A DNA stretch of 64,000 nt from Hysterangium stoloniferum. Lineage: Eukaryota; Basidiomycota; Agaricomycetes; Hysterangiales; Hysterangiaceae. The stretch spans positions 124,001-188,000 of the forward strand of contig WHVD01000036.1 of NCBI GenBank assembly GCA_015178975.1, written 5' to 3'. Position numbers and translations under genes: made by a program. Below the pieces are notes generated by a model that was not told where the DNA came from, ran no database searches, and was given only the letters and a program-made list of their open reading frames with translations. This document shows positions 4,678 through 13,508 of the stretch, one piece after another (position 1 is the stretch's first letter; each line of letters opens with the position of its first letter).

Positions 4678-4815
4678 TAAGTGATAGATAGGTCGGAGGT
4701 TAAGTGATAGATAGGTTAGAGGTTAAGTGATAGATAGGTTGGAGGTTAAGTGATAGATAGGTTGGAGGTTAAGTGATAGATAGGTCAGAGGTTAAGTGAT
4801 AGATAGGCCAGAGCC
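4678..4815. repeat. 23-bp minisatellite, right part
   Basis: About six copies of the unit AGGTTAAGTGATAGATAGG with few changes. It continues the array at 2998-3074; together they were one array in LTR A before the Tc1-like insertion. LTR B lacks this array and has GTCGTAGGTCAGAGGTTGTT-type repeats at the same place. Confidence 0.92.
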
Positions 4816-5416
4816 TGTGGGCTCTGACAAGGTGAATAGTAGTGTGTTTCAAAGAGAAGATTAGAGCAGAAAATGTACTGAGATTACTGGGGGAATCTAA
4901 GCTGATTTTCTGACTGGATTGTATGTACAACATCTGCCAGACTATATAGACTGTGGAATGTATGTCATACCAAATCCAGTAATAATGAAATCCAAACTAG
5001 TAAGCATGAAATGAGATAAGTAAACACCAAATTTGGTGTTTGGTGTCAGGAATAGGATGGAGCAAAGTGGAGTCCAAATTGTGACAGGTCATTAGACCAT
5101 AATGGGAATGGGGTGTGAGTGGAGTCTGAAATGTGACAGGTCATTTGACCATAACGGGAATGGGGCTCAGTTAGAGAGCTATTGGGTTTTCCAAGAGGAG
5201 TCCAGTGACTCGTGCATGGGACAGGGTCAGAGATAGACAGATGTGGGTCCTGGCAGGTATTCCAGTGACTGATACATGAAGTGACAAAGGTTGAGCACAG
5301 ACAGGTCTGATGCCCAGAGTCCAGTGGGTATTCCAGTAAACCAATAACTGGTGTGTATAGGGTGTGGGTACATATAAGTTAGTGCCTGGAGTCTGCCAGG
5401 TTTTCTGGTTGTAACA

Positions 5417-6169
5417 GGTTAGTTGAATATTGAGTTGAATAATCTCAAAAAAATAGTCAAGTTAGAAAATGAGTTGAAATGTCAAAGAAATGTCAAATTG
5501 AATATTATTGGAATTTGAGCTTGTACATTTGTGACATATCAAATGGAGACAAGTAAAGGTTCATCAAGGATTAAGTCAAATAATGTCAAATGTTAGTTGA
5601 GTTGAAAAGTTGTTGAAGTTAATCTTGTGTGTTTTTGTGATAGTTTGTGACAGTCATGACACCTTTCAAAAATAAGAAAACATTAGGACAGTTTCTTAAG
5701 CCACTGTACACATATCCCATCCCAAAGATTAAATCATAATCCAAATAATATTGTTTAACTGAAACATTTGTGTATATTTTAAAGGAAATATCTCTTAAAG
5801 ATTCAATTTTGGGGTAATAAAATATAAACTCATAAAATATGTAGTCCAGAAGATGTTAAGTTTCATTTCAGAGGCTTATTTTGGAAACTATCAGAAAGCC
5901 ACTGGAGAATTTGAGTACTTCCAGGTAGTATTCAGGACTTGGCTTTAGCTTATGTACTGCACTGCTATGCAAATGCTTGGAGTGTCCTTAATTTCAGAAG
6001 ATAGACTTATACTGAAGATTTTATGGATATTTGGAGTTCCAAAGAGTTCCAAATATTGAGCATACAGAAAGAGAAGAGGAATATGCTAACTAAATTAATT
6101 TCAGATCTGAGTTGTAAGTACAAATCTGCAAAACTAATATCATTTGTCTTGTAATTGTACTACAAACTA
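5417..6169. other. Relic DNA between LTR A and LTR B
   Basis: No gene recognised. It holds an outer Tc1-like end at 5660-5706 (ends AAGCCACTG before TA) and, near 5936-6005, a fragment matching the conserved LTR core (GGACTTGGCTTTAGCTTATG). The first 200 bp are rich in repeated TCAAAT/GTTGAA words. Confidence 0.6.
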
Positions 6170-6460
6170 AAATACTTCTACAATATTATCTTCCTTGAAT
6201 CCTAGTATTTCAGTATCCTTTTCTAACTTTGATTGGGAACTGGTACAATTTACCAGCTCTTCCCAGTCATCTGGTATTTCTTCTAATCCACAACTTTGTT
6301 TCCATTCTAATAACTTCCCCTTGTGATCTCTGAAGTTCAATACCTTTTCTTCCTCCTTATTTGTATGTGTCTTAAGTTTACTGTTTTCGGGTATTTTTCT
6401 AATAGTTATTATTTCTAAACCATGTTTATGACAAAAGCTTTCATGATTCTTCTTATTTTG
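6170..6460 (-). pseudogene. Coding relic interrupted by LTR B
   Basis: The minus strand reads for about 95 codons without a stop: KNHESFCHKHGLEI, then IRKIPENSKL, then LLEWKQSCGLEEIPDDWEEL. The frame is continuous across the LTR B insertion with SKMCQN at 7305-7325. It is lysine and glutamate rich and looks like protein, but I recognise no family. A further open stretch at 7540-7737 may belong to it. Confidence 0.4.
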
Positions 6461-7296
6461 TGTTAGGATACATACAGGGCAGGTTTCCAGAGAAACCCGC
6501 GAAATATCCAGTAGGACTTGGCTTCAGCTTATAGGCTGCACCCTCACTAGATCGTGTTGTCCAATTTCAGACGGATGGATGGGAATCCTGGGGAGTCTGG
6601 GTGGGGGTCGTGGGTCAAGGGTCGTAGGTCAGAGGTTGTTGGTCGTAGGTCAGAGGTTGTTGGTTGTGGGTCGATATTGGTGTGAGAGAGATAGATGTGC
6701 CGGAGCCTGTGGGCTCTGACTAGTGCGAGCGGTGTAAATCAAGTAGGGTTTTAGAGCGGAAATGTATTAGATTACTGGGGGGAATCTAAGCCGATTTTCT
6801 GACTGGATTGTATGTACAACGTCTGCCAGTTTAAATAGACTGTGGAGTGAATGTCATACCGAATCCAGTAATAATGAAATGAAATGAGCAAAACATAAAA
6901 TGGGAATAGTAAACACCAATTTGGTGTTAGGAATGGGACAGAACGGAGTGGAGTCCGAATAGTGACAAATCATAAACCATAATGGGAAATGGAGTGGGAG
7001 CGGAGTCCAAATCGTGACAGGTCATTTGACTAAAATGGGAACGGGGCTCTGTTAGAGAGGTGATGGGTTTTCTGAGTGGGGTCCGGTGACTGACATGCGG
7101 GACGAGGTCAAAAATAGACAGAGATGGAGTCCGGTGGGTTTTCCGGTGACTGAAACACAATGTAACGAAGACGAACGTAGATGAGTCTGACATACGGAGT
7201 CTGGTGGGAATTCCGGTAAACTGATAATAGGTGCGTATAGGGCATGGGTGTGTATAAGTTAGTGCCCAGAGTCCCGCGGGATTTCCGGTCGTAACA
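6461..7296 (-). mobile_element. Solo LTR B, TSD TTTTG
   Basis: An 836-bp unit from TGTTAGGATACA to CCGGTCGTAACA, flanked by TTTTG at 6456-6460 and 7297-7301. It aligns along most of its length with LTR A (without the Tc1 insertion). It has cut a coding-like minus-strand reading (see 6170-6460). Confidence 0.92.
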
Positions 7297-8423
7297 TTTT
7301 GACACATTTTACTCCCATGGCTCTTCCAGCAATGTTGTAGCCATACTAGATGCAAATGAATAGACTAAGTCATCTATTCCAGAATGACTATTTATCATCT
7401 TGTTCTGTATATGTCCTTCCATAAGAAAAGATTGATGTATTCTTAAATGCTAATAACTAGTCTATGGATGTAAGTCTTTTCATTTCACATATGCTTTAAG
7501 ACATGGTGGCTTGGAAACTCCATAGATATCATGTTCTTATCATTTGAAGATATAATAAGTAGTTGGATCATTGAACTGCTTGTGATCTTGACTTTCATGT
7601 AAGAGCAATGCAAATATGCAGATTAATTCATCACTTTTATGCTTTAAATAGTCATCCAAATGTGGCAAACAATGCTGCACACCTGACTGTGTGAACGTTT
7701 TAAATGAACAGGCAATTGCTTCACCACATATGTACATTCATTCATTCTTCCTTTGTTCATACATAATGCATGGTCCACTTTGTTCGCTACCACTCTCTTG
7801 TCAATTCACACTGGAGCGATATCCGTCAACTCCCTAAGTTAACACAAGTTTACAGAAGTCTACAAAACACATTGACACAAATACAAACCTGACACGTGCA
7901 TGTCCTACAGTATCAACAGTGATCGGATCTCAGATGAGTGACTAAAACAGGATTTGGAAGTTGTGCACAGAAGAGCTGTATGACCATCCGATATTTACCT
8001 GTTCGTTTGGCTGACAGAGAATTCAAAGAATGAAGCTTATCAGCGAAATCGTATATACTGTACATTCAGAGCACGGTATAGCTGCCGTGTAGCCAATTTC
8101 CTGAAGCACAGGCCCATTCTTTCGACTCTCGCAAGATATTTGGATGGAACCTGAATGGCGTGAGGTGGATACCGGATGCTCCGTGAGTGTTGGAACTGAC
8201 ATATGCGTATGCATGGTTGATCGACGAAAACAAAAATAATACATACACAGCCATCGACTCAAGACACTTAAAACATTGACTATACATTAGCTGAAGAGAG
8301 CGTGTTGCATAGAGTATTTGTATGAGGTAGCATAATGTAATACAAACGCATATGCAATATGACTTCAGTAATCCACTGAATAGGTTTTGAAGAGAAACGG
8401 AATATAGGCCCTAAGACACCACT
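7297..8423. other. Region between LTR B and eS30
   Basis: 7540-7737 (minus) is an open stretch starting MYICGEAIACSFKTF with LPHLDDYLKHKSDELI; it may be part of the gene split by LTR B. From 7740 to 8423 I see no gene, RNA or repeat that I can support. Confidence 0.4.
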
Positions 8424-8996
8424 TTATTTCTCCGGGTTGGGGTTCCTGTGGACAGACAACAGTCAGCATATGTTCTCGTGTTGGAAGGAGAAAGAACGGA
8501 GGAGATCAGATAGGAGCGAAAGACGTTAGATGTATGTTTGTCAACAGAAAATGGTTCAGTGTGAACTATGCATGCTTTGGAGTTCATCAGGTGGGCATGA
8601 GCAGCTAATAGCAAGTACGCTGTCAAGCTCAAGAAAGAGAAACGGATTACTCACATCCGACGCTTGCCTCCTGGTAGAAGAGTGACGTTAACAAATCTAC
8701 AAGAACGTGGTGAGTCCAGATATCTCCCATCCATTGGAATCCTACATACCGACGGTTGTAGACAAGACGTTTCTTCGCGCGCCCTCTTGGTGTCTTCTTC
8801 TTTTCTTGCTTCTCAACTTTAGGTGTCTGTGACTTTACTTTACCCGCACGAGCGAGTGATCCATGGACTGGATGAAACGAAACAGACGTTAACTATTGTA
8901 TACATAATCGTCTCATGATTTGGTTATACCTAAAGAACAAAAACATCAAAAAAAAGAGCAAATATCACTTAAATGATTTACTGGACCTTTTCCCAT
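8424..8996 (-). CDS. RPS30: Small ribosomal subunit protein eS30
   Basis: Four exons: 8996-8987, 8867-8750, 8696-8655 and 8445-8424, joining to a 63-aa protein. It starts [14 protein letters not shown], contains a lysine-rich middle (KVEKQEKKK), then [14 protein letters not shown] and ends NPNPEK. This is the eS30 family: a basic protein of the 40S head near the decoding site. It is the free form, without the ubiquitin-like leader found in animals. Introns 2 and 3 have GTATGT and GTGAGT donors. Intron 1 would need the unusual donor GTCCAG to give the conserved MGKVHG start, so the exon 1 border is the weakest point. Intron 3 (209 nt) is long for this genome and houses a box C/D snoRNA. Confidence 0.93.
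8501..8594 (-). ncRNA. snR60: Box C/D snoRNA, snR60/SNORD80-like
   Basis: Within eS30 intron 3, in transcript order: box C TGATGA (8589-8584), D' CTGA (8559-8556), C' TGTTGA (8546-8541), D CTGA (8509-8506). The 11 nt before D' (GCATAGTTCAC, 8571-8561) are complementary to the 25S rRNA stretch GUGAACUAUGC. The 15 nt before D (GTCTTTCGCTCCTAT, 8524-8510) pair with 25S AUAGGGGCGAAAGAC, with one G-U pair. By the box+5 rule the targets are an A and a G that correspond to yeast Am817 and Gm908, the two sites of snR60. Both guides matching one known snoRNA makes chance unlikely. The terminal stem is weak. It is presumably released from the debranched or trimmed intron. Confidence 0.88.
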
Positions 8997-9308
8997 ATTG
9001 ACGTGTGAGGAGGGTTGAGGATGCGACACGAGCGGGGTCGCTGGAGATGGTGTTGAGGAGTTGGCTGAGTTTCAAATGAATACAGCTGGAAAACAAGGTT
9101 TTGGCGCTTCCGACCAACTCCTGGGCCTAATCCTCAAAATAGACAAAGAATATTCACAAAGAAAATGACAACAAGTTGTAACGCTTCAGAACTTCTATTC
9201 AACCTTGGTCTGTTAGATTATCTGACCGCTATTACACTGTCCACGTTACTCTCATTTACAGGAGCTTAGTAATAATGACTCGAAACGGTAGTAGTGTATG
9301 TAAGCAAA
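8997..9308. other. eS30 5' leader and upstream DNA
   Basis: The minus-strand leader is pyrimidine rich just before the eS30 ATG (rich in CCTC and CATC words), as usual for ribosomal protein genes. Nothing else recognised. Confidence 0.4.
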
Positions 9309-9326
9309 GGATCACGTGAGATGTAT

Positions 9327-9649
9327 TTTTTTTTTTTTTAATACATTTATATACCGCATCGCATAACGAAGATACATAGCGGTTGGGAGAAAAGTACCCT
9401 AATGGTAGGTGGGGGCGGCAGGATGTGTATGTAGCTGGTTGGTATGGGCAAGAGGGTCGAATGTAGGGCGGGGAAGAGTGGGCCGGTTATGCTTTCCGGA
9501 AAGCATCAGAGGCGGCGATGAACTCAGCTAGGGCTTCAAGGCCCTTGTAGGTGCCGAGGATAATGGGGATGATAGGTCTTGAGAGGCAGTGCGGAAGGTG
9601 TGGCGGTGCTCCTCGTGAAGGGGGCACTCGAAAAGGATGTGGAGGCACT
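9327..9649 (-). mobile_element. 5'-truncated LINE, 18-bp TSD
   Basis: The insertion is flanked by perfect 18-bp repeats GGATCACGTGAGATGTAT (9309-9326 and 9650-9667). On the minus strand it begins inside an ORF2 C-terminus (CLHILFECPLHEEHRHTFR), passes a frameshift, continues LGTYKGLEALAEFIAASDAF, and ends in a poly(A) tail (T run from 9327). Such a C-terminal CPL-H motif and the last helix are typical of Tad/L1-type fungal LINE reverse transcriptases. It is a dead-on-arrival copy made by target-primed reverse transcription. A related 3' end is at 18762-18882. Confidence 0.92.
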
Positions 9650-9667
9650 GGATCACGTGAGATGTAT

Positions 9668-10208
9668 CCTTAGCCTCCTCCTTCTCGCGGGGACTACAGA
9701 TGGACAGAGGGTAACACTCACGTCGCCACAAAACTAAAACGACGTAAAATAGTAGATTGACCAGATTATGATCCCTCATTTACATCTAGTATGGCTAGGG
9801 TTGGTTTCAAACTGAACCTTATTGGTCGGATGCACTCACGGGAGTATTTTTGCTGCCATGGGACTATTTTGTGACAAGTGTGGAAGTATTCCTGAGAAAT
9901 CCGATGCTATCACTTTTTATCGGCATACTGTCCTCACTTCCTCCTATTAATCCTCTAGCCGTATGGTATACCAGATGACTAAAGTACACTCCGATATTTA
10001 CATGTTGCAGCAGCTTCCTCGTTTCCCCATTCCCATTTCCTCCTTGAGCCATTCTCTTATAGTCGGTTGTATCAAACGACAGACATACAACTAAGCGCTA
10101 AAACCAAAACGGGAGAACTTCTGTCACTGAGTGCCCATGCAAGTATTAGTATGCATACATTGCAACCAAATGCACGCAGAACTTTGTCAAATCTACTTAC
10201 ACAATCTG
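9668..10208. other. Intergenic, nothing recognised
   Basis: Short open stretches on both strands overlap one another and show no family signature. No repeat or RNA seen. Confidence 0.4.
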
Positions 10209-10767
10209 CTAATTCGACTTTCCTAACGCCGCAGCGGCAGTCGCTCCCTCAATAATCTCTTCCAATGTATAAATACGAATCCTATCGACGTTTGGCACCA
10301 GGTCACCCCAAGCTTTTGCCCAGGTTGGGACTTCATGGTATTCACCGTTGGATGACGGACCATAACGAAACGTGACATAGACTTTCATAGGCGTCCAAGA
10401 GATCCGTTCGTTCAGGATCCTAGTCGACTGCTTTGATTCTTCAGGCAAGTCGAAGGCATAACTAAATTTACTATAGACCAACTGTCGTGTATTGATATTA
10501 GTACTAACCATTCATTTTGTAGGGAACACAAACCCGCATATCAGGTGTAATTAGTGACATTCGACCAACGACAATGGTCCTTCCGTTGTGTTCCACTAAA
10601 ATCTGAGGCGGTGCAGGACTTGCCTGGATCACAGCCGCCTCGGTTTCCGTTTTCTGGAGAGCTTGGGCAGTCTCTAGTTGTCCCGTCAAGCGATTCAACG
10701 CTACGACAATGCGATCGATGGCCTGTACGATTTCTGACATAGCAGGCAATGTGCTGTCCTGTTCCAT
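10209..10767 (-). CDS. Hypothetical protein, two exons
   Basis: Exon 1 is 10767-10534 and exon 2 is 10481-10209, joined over a 52-nt intron with donor GTTTGT, a near-perfect branch site TACTAAT and acceptor CACGACAG. This keeps the frame and gives about 168 aa: an N-terminal helical part with SEIVQAIDRIVVALNRL and many Gln/Ala, then an acidic-aromatic C-terminal part with WTPMKVYVTFRYG and VPTWAKAWGDLV. I recognise no domain; no signal peptide or membrane segment. It may be lineage specific. The open frames on both sides of the intron and the textbook branch site are the main support. Confidence 0.6.
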
Positions 10768-11133
10768 GCTTGCTCAGTCACATGCCCATTTCTGGCTCAG
10801 ATATGACAGAAGCCGCGGACAGAGGGCGTAACGCGAGAGGTCTCGTGAGACTTGATCTGTTAATGGTACCTGACACAAAAATCTCAGCCACTAAGACGTT
10901 CAATGAAGAATTTCCATGATAGATGCTAGTACACAACAATTTCATATTATTTTAGCCGCCAAAATTGGCGGCAGGCAGCAGAACGCATTTACGTACTAGT
11001 ACACGCTGTCAACTGACTTGGCACTAAGTTTTGAAAATACTATATTTACATTTCAATTACTTTTCTGTGCTAAAGATTGTTTTGAGAGATTTTTGCCATC
11101 TTTCAGCCATTTTTTCGATGGTCCCTGAAGGCA
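10768..11133. other. Intergenic, nothing recognised
   Basis: Contains a small hairpin GCCGCCAAAATTGGCGGC (10961-10978). TAGTACAC words flank it at about 10928 and 10998, which may mark a very small repeat. No gene seen. Confidence 0.35.
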
Positions 11134-11443
11134 CCCCAAGGTTTTTGGAGTTTGCAAACCTTCTTAAAATCTTAATCTTTAGCCGAATTTCCTAAACGGT
11201 TTTTGAACTAATGAACTGTTTGAAAGTTGTTAAGTTTTAGGACAATTTTCCAAAGTGGAAAATCATATCTAAAAACCTTTAAAATTTGTAACAGGAAACT
11301 CTGCCTGATGATGTTTCCTCAGAGTTCTTGATGCAGATCTTTAGGTATGACTTTCCACCTTGAAAAAACCTACTAAAATTTGAAAACTGCCAACACTTTC
11401 CCAGTTGTTTTCAGAAGGTTCTCCAAATCCAAAAACCTTGGGG
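11134..11443. mobile_element. Foldback MITE, empty copy
   Basis: A 310-bp copy of the family at 2111-2601 with ends CCCCAAGGTTTTTGGA and TCCAAAAACCTTGGGG and internal matches such as TTTTCCAAAGTGGAAAATCA and GATGATGTTTCCTCAGA. It lacks the Tc1 fragment present in the other copy. It has no coding capacity, so it must rely on another element's transposase. Confidence 0.75.
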
Positions 11444-13508
11444 CGTCTTTATGACGATAATAAATATTTTAATCACAAAGGGACTATCTGTTATTTCTAC
11501 TAGAAAAGAGCGTTTTTGCAAAACCTTGTCCACGTCTCTTTTTTTGTGTTATAATAATAATTTTAAGCGTCTCCATAAGGGTCTTTCAGCATATCAACCC
11601 AGATTATTCGTATCATCCAGATTGAGGATCTGCAGTGTAGCAGCCACCACCAGCTAAGACTGTTCGTGTGGTGGCCCGAGTTGCATTATGGTGTGAAAAA
11701 AGAATGCTGTATTATATAATTATTTTATTGGAGCTCACGCATGGGACAAAGTTTTGTGAATCTACTGTAACCAGATGATTATACAAAATACGCAAAATGT
11801 ATTATATTAATTTATAAAAATATAATTGCTTACTGGTTTGACCATCATAACAACGCGTCTTATCAACAAGATCGATAACGACATTCCAAAGTGGCTTGAA
11901 GACGAACACACGACCATAGGCCTCCGAGGCAAACAGTCAAGAACTCTATTCCTTCCCACGAACCGTGTCAGGTTTTGGGTACGGCTCCAAGTGCGGAACG
12001 CTCCAGTAGACTACATGAGCTGTATGACGTACACAAAAAAATTAGTGCCTCTTTGTCCGCTGCACACATCATCCGGTTAGCGTTGTTATACCGGGGTCAG
12101 CTTTAATCGCCAATTTCTGCCAACTTGAACGTCCTTGAAACAAGCGTTGACCAGACAACACTTGCCGTCAACATTCTTTCAGACGACTCCGCGTACCTAC
12201 TGGGAAGTCAGCGCCCCCCCAAATTTGTTTGGAGGACATCCAAATGCGTCATATGAAGTATATAGATACCGTCTGTTGTCGCCGGATCAGGCAAACTTCT
12301 GTTTCAGACTGCCCACCCCCCATATTCTTATTTGCAAGGTCGGATATAGTATGCTTCCAATGTTTACTCACCGCCATTCCGTCTCAATCACAGTCCTTCT
12401 GGGTCCTGTTATTCTATAATGTGGAGATAATGGACCCGATTGTAGTTCCAAATGAGGCCGACTACTAGGACGGGGGTTGGGGTTCAACCGCATTATGCGG
12501 AGACAAACTCCCGTGTTCCCACGCGTGAAAGTCTCACACAGCGCTTGGCTCCGAATTTTCGATCTTGGAACTTTGTTGAAGACACTTCGAAGTGTCTTGC
12601 GCCAGTAAAAACTTTTAATCGTGGCATTCATAATATTACAGACATCCATGGTTGAACCATAATAGGTACCTACTATGGTCCACTTGTCGGAGAAGAAAGA
12701 TAGAATTCTGAAAAGAGTTGTTCAGATAGCATCAGGGGAATGAATTCTTGAATTTTGACTCTTATGTCAATGGCAAATATTAATGACTTGGTTTAATATA
12801 TGTTTGTTCCGGCTTGTCTCAGCTATGAGCTTACCGAACTGTGGCCACAGCTGGTATTTGAAAGTTTTCTTAGTAAGACAATGGGTAATATCGGACAAAA
12901 CTGTGAGAAAATGGTACGAAAAATAGTAAGAAAACGGTGGTGTGGAATATCCCTGACTATGCTTGACTAAGCAGATCCCACACCATTTGTCTGATATTAA
13001 ATACTGAGAAAATCTGCGGGATTGCCACCTTTGTCTCTACTTCGGGGAGTACTGATATTTCTATTTTTAGATATGTATAGCATTCTGGTGGAACCACGTG
13101 ACCACATTCTGATTGCATGTGACCACCTCCTGATGCTAATTAGTGTCATTTCAAATTCAAGGCATCTGTCAGACTGCGGACTCTGGTTGAATCCAAGTTT
13201 TCATTCCATGTCCCTCAGGCTTTACCCTGACGCGCTCGACATTTCATAAAGGTACGTGTCCAGCCTATTGACATGTTGGAAAACCCACGCCGCCTTATTC
13301 ATCTCCTATGTTTTCAGCGCTGTCTAGTAGAACCCTCGCACGCGCTGCTTCGACTTCTCGATCACCCCTTATCAAGATCCATTAGTCCGGAGTCACATGC
13401 TGCACCGCTTTACATCAGCCGCCATATGATCATAAAAGGCCATGTCTTGTGCCTTCCAACTCTTCCCATCCCACTCACTTCCAACCTCGAACTCATCCAA
13501 GAATCATC
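11444..13508. other. Long region without a supported gene
   Basis: Open readings here are short, overlap on opposite strands and match no family. A weak hairpin lies near 12933-12985 (GGTGTGGAATATCC versus GATCCCACACC). The last 80 bp are the metallothionein promoter. Nothing else can be supported. Confidence 0.4.
13431..13437 (+). promoter_or_regulatory. TATA-like box of metallothionein gene
   Basis: CATAAAA lies about 75 bp before the metallothionein ATG, followed by a CT-rich leader. Position and composition fit a core promoter; metal-response sites were not identified with confidence. Confidence 0.45.

Follow-up and report, generated by a model that had tools for sequence, protein, structure and literature searches.

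The last intron of an eS30 (RPS30) gene in Hysterangium stoloniferum holds what is almost certainly a working box C/D snoRNA of the snR60 type that is processed from the intron, and in this snoRNA one extra base stands between the D' guide and box D'. The gene lies on the minus strand of the window, by which we mean the whole stretch of 64,000 nucleotides that was analysed (Table 1). The family, the host gene, the splice sites, the boxes, the duplexes of both guides with the species' own rRNA and the retention of guides and boxes in three copies can all be read from the DNA. An intronic snoRNA in a ribosomal-protein gene is in itself ordinary, and the point of interest is the D' spacing. That spacing offers a test of whether a 2'-O-methyl mark common to yeast, plants and human can move by one base, and it also tests a rule measured in yeast on a natural variant from elsewhere.

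Table 1. Features of the eS30 gene and its intronic snoRNA, in window coordinates.
Feature	Position	Strand	Remarks
eS30 (RPS30) gene, start to stop	8424..8996	minus	complete; exons 8996-8987, 8867-8750, 8696-8655, 8445-8424
eS30 intron 3 (last), GTGAGT...CACAG	8446..8654	minus	209 nt; snoRNA-bearing
Candidate branch site CTGAC	8462..8466	minus	A 43 nt past box D
snR60-family box C/D snoRNA, full RF00309 match	8498..8599	minus	52.5 bits, gathering score 41, model positions 1-98 of 98
snoRNA core, box C to box D	8506..8589	minus	84 nt; 73/84 bases shared with the copy in the second eS30 gene
Box C TGATGA	8584..8589	minus	
D' guide GCATAGTTCAC	8561..8571	minus	11 pairs with own 25S rRNA
CA separating TTCA from box D'	8560..8561	minus	2 bases; Rfam consensus has 1; C falls in an insert column
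Box D' CTGA	8556..8559	minus	
Box C' TGTTGA	8541..8546	minus	1 base different from TGATGA
D guide GTCTTTCGCTCCTAT	8510..8524	minus	15 pairs, 1 G-U; five-nucleotide rule gives the Gm908 equivalent
Box D CTGA	8506..8509	minus	

The preliminary description of this DNA had proposed an snR60-type box C/D snoRNA with four boxes in order at 8501-8594, an interval that corresponds to the core plus five bases on each side, and had named a covariance-model search as a check. That search bears the proposal out, since the interval matches RF00309 (snosnR60_Z15) above the gathering score, with an E value of 2.1e-7 over 3,001 bases and 4.6e-6 over the whole window. It is the sole Rfam match above gathering score in the 64 kb. 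Boxes C, D', C' and D were all located in intact order, with C' reading TGTTGA. The locus thus shares with RF00309 and yeast snR60 the box order, both guides and a score above the cut-off; it differs in the two bases that part TTCA from box D', where the consensus has one, and in having no terminal stem. No terminal or external stem was found in any of the three copies in the genome, where at most one of the first five flanking positions is pairable and where, out of 300 shuffles, 271, 289 and 135, respectively, gave a flank duplex at least as good as the best real one. A closing terminal stem is common in box C/D snoRNAs and is not required, and we did not treat it as defining.

The placement of the snoRNA in an eS30 intron, as had been claimed, holds too. 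The spliced frame of the host gene runs for 63 residues without an internal stop, and its product matches Pfam Ribosomal_S30 (PF04758) with an E value of 8.1e-31 (106.5 bits against a cut-off of 27). In the last intron, 65 nt precede box C and 60 nt trail box D. The other two copies have a CTGAT motif 44 and 45 nt past box D, close to the distance of the candidate branch site in the window. Expression, processing and methylation of the snoRNA are what we infer from this arrangement. RNA polymerase II would transcribe eS30, and splicing and debranching would release the snoRNA-bearing intron; C/D proteins assembled on the snoRNA would block exonucleases at both of its ends, and the mature RNP would pair with pre-25S rRNA, which fibrillarin would methylate.

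Both guides were compared with the genome's own 25S rRNA, for which a single place was found in the 111 Mb genome. The D' guide forms 11 of 11 pairs with no G-U in the Am817 region, and the D guide forms 15 of 15 pairs including one G-U, just as the preliminary description had it. That description had held that a 25S rRNA of the species lacking the two complementary stretches would speak against the snoRNA, and both stretches are present. Against a 1500-base piece of 25S rRNA, shuffled guides reached the observed length in 1 of 150 cases for D' and in 0 of 150 for D. The D' pairing is therefore not compelling by itself; it is the family match that makes the case for the snoRNA.

Known marks were placed on the species' own 25S rRNA through the offsets between published sites. 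The yeast sites Gm805, Am807, Am817 and Gm908 give offsets of -12, -10, 0 and +91 (PMC5199042), the same offsets occur in every cross-species column that is numbered for all four sites (PMC11542601), and the snR60-type sites are given as 91 apart in Arabidopsis, human and yeast (PMC3511168). Of the two adjacent As in GTGAAC, the second is the Am817 equivalent, because it alone has the expected neighbours (G at -12 and +91, A at -10); the first was considered for this role and ruled out, as it has C at -12. The claim that the guides address the Am817 and Gm908 equivalents stands for one half of the molecule: the D guide sets the Gm908 equivalent exactly at the fifth base from box D, and should direct its methylation, whereas the five-nucleotide rule puts the D' target one base to the 5' side of the Am817 equivalent. 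Complementarity is not targeting, and by the strict rule the Am817 equivalent would be missed because two bases (C and A), not one, precede box D'.

All three copies read TTCA-CA-CTGA, compared with TTCA-a-cUGA in the Rfam consensus, which gives the majority only, and in the Rfam alignments of all three the extra base sits in an insert column. When the five-nucleotide rule is applied to the consensus, the two predicted targets are the second A and the Gm908 equivalent, at a distance of 91; in all three copies they are the first A and the same G, at a distance of 92. The one extra base before box D' accounts for this step, and the D' guide should, if the five-nucleotide rule holds, direct methylation to the first A, the 5' neighbour of the Am817 equivalent. 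There is a precedent in yeast: insertion of a U after the guide and ahead of the D' box displaced methylation from position 1316 to 1315 of 18S rRNA, one base in the direction predicted here (PMC5389607). One possibility, which we put forward tentatively, is that the Am817 mark has moved one base 5' in this fungus, and perhaps in a wider lineage, through a single base inserted in snR60 between the D' guide and box D'.

An alternative with not quite an even chance of being right is that the D' half continues to direct its mark to the Am817 equivalent itself, either through an effective D' box that begins one base earlier (ACUGA) or through a flexible C'/D' fold. Yeast C'/D' motifs include extended D' boxes, with which methylation six nucleotides from the D' box is possible (PMC5389607), and tables for yeast, Arabidopsis and human list the Am817 site as methylated or as a target (PMC3511168, PMC11542601). 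The extended-box cases described, however, involve a missing 5' C, a long non-consensus box or a guide ending in C (PMC5389607), whereas box D' here is a full CTGA preceded by A, and the yeast insertion of U at the corresponding place did move the mark (PMC5389607). Yeast U18, snR13 and snR48 resemble the present snoRNA in that D' geometry picks which of neighbouring bases is methylated, but in their case the explanation given is an extended D' box with two sites in reach (PMC5389607), while here a normal D' box lies one base further from the guide.

A genome-wide search with exact patterns, which a diverged guide would escape, turned up no second C/D guide with canonical spacing for the Am817 site. 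TGATGA occurs 3-20 bases before CATAGTTCA at eight places in the genome, three of which are the known copies, and at the other five no CTGA lies within two bases after CATAGTTCA. CATAGTTCANCTGA occurs at three places (two for a reversed-pattern control), with no box C in the 45 bases before any of them, and CATAGTTCANCAGA has no match in the genome. The eight loci other than the snR60 copies gave no Rfam match at E <=1.

The other copies bear on whether the D' half and the window copy are in use. Scoring of 60 out of 10,879 first-look candidates gave three RF00309 matches in the 111 Mb genome, all above the cut-off. Contig C101 has another eS30 gene, whose corresponding intron holds the second match, and these two genes are what a protein search of the genome for eS30 found. 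None of the boxes and neither guide differs between the three copies. The alignment of the two eS30 introns has 18 gap columns, and 161 of its 209 aligned positions are identical; identity in the core (73/84) exceeds that in the aligned rest of the three introns (202/289; one-sided Fisher P 0.0009). It is improbable that the D' half guides nothing and that the D guide, with its Gm908 target, is the sole functional one: box C' deviates from TGATGA in reading TGTTGA, and the spacing does not follow the family consensus, yet the D' guide and D' box have stayed identical three times over despite the diverged flanking intron. Even less credible is a window copy that is a decaying duplicate, with the snoRNA supplied by the C101 copies. 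It has the lowest score (52.5 bits, against 55 and 59.1), but it retains every base of boxes and guides, and its core is more conserved than the remaining intron.

The coding sequences of the two eS30 genes agree at 174 of 192 bases. Because 18 of 64 codons differ, each synonymously, the duplication does not appear to be recent. When 5-kb stretches were compared as DNA (909500-914500 of C101 and 6500-11500 of the window), gene and flanks aligned over window positions 9119-8288 (656/866 columns), as far as position 912075 of C101. Further matches at the protein level, in longer stretches around the two genes, have the look of repeats. The third copy (C101:912301-912403) lies past that end, downstream of the C101 eS30 stop, inside a predicted intron of 202 bases (GTGAGT...CTATAG; L001:1467-1668), and has the top score of the three, 59.1 bits. 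It may belong to the 3' untranslated part of the C101 eS30 transcript, or to a transcript of its own. Against the window DNA its snoRNA core alone aligns (80/88 columns); since its flanks do not align with the window eS30 intron, the third copy may have moved alone. The genome thus presents a small natural series for snoRNA spread, in which two copies occupy equivalent introns of duplicated genes and the third has nothing but the core in common with them.

One tabulation of snoRNA targets that go back to the last eukaryotic common ancestor includes snR60 (PMC3511168). The preliminary description had set the place in a ribosomal-protein gene against budding yeast, where it gave snR60 as an independent gene, and against vertebrates, where it gave the counterpart as lying in GAS5. 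The location inside an eS30 intron holds, but it is less novel than claimed because the Neurospora homologue and a Pleurotus match are intronic as well (PMC2780460, PMC5040776), and an intronic snR60 is not unusual in filamentous fungi. In Neurospora crassa, 45 of 55 C/D snoRNAs are given as intronic, including the snR60 homologue CD48, listed as 'Intron', with targets 26S-Am797 (D') and 26S-Gm888 (D); those sites are 91 apart, whereas the rule gives 92 here (PMC2780460). In Pleurotus ostreatus, the RF00309 match snosnR60_Z15.1 lies in an intron of an agaric gene, g7941 (PMC5040776), and for another mushroom, Dictyophora, the published list names two snosnR60_Z15 without their places (PMC10411574). 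In sponges, too, the last intron of a gene that encodes eS30, the fusion gene FAU, harbours a snoRNA, but that snoRNA, SNORA62, is of the H/ACA type and has another target (PMC4515611). The guide sequences as strings had no match in the literature searched, from which we do not claim that they are absent from print. No basidiomycete RiboMeth-seq study was among the matches listed, and the literature matches for an Agaricomycetes snoRNA in a ribosomal-protein intron were off topic, judging by their listing. The D-guide pattern had no match in viral_contigs, and its one match in genome_contigs, in a Clostridia MAG, was judged to be chance. The eS30 protein gave 20 pattern-matching stretches in viral_contigs, none of them a relative.

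Some further features of the gene and its surroundings were observed. Intron 1 of the window eS30 gene (8986-8868, minus strand, 119 bases) holds an internal TTCTTTAG followed directly by GTATAACC, split at 8930/8929, and this is the longest exact run (16 bases) that it has in common with intron 1 of the C101 gene. The split divides intron 1 into 57 and 62 bases in the window and into 57 and 58 bases in C101. Intron 2 measures 53 bases, and because the parts of intron 1 are near that size, they suggest recursive splicing or a pair of introns lying end to end. At the 5' splice site of intron 1 (8986-8981, minus strand) stands GTCCAG, a seemingly unusual sequence, where the C101 gene reads GTATAG. 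An open frame of 83 residues lies on the minus strand just upstream of the eS30 gene (9528-9779), and it contains CPLHEEHRH, which we take to resemble the C-terminal end of a non-LTR retroelement polyprotein. Several protein-level matches link 4772-7364 of the window to C101:916786-918206, which also matches sequence of contig C290 just before the window, and these stretches are probably a repeat family.
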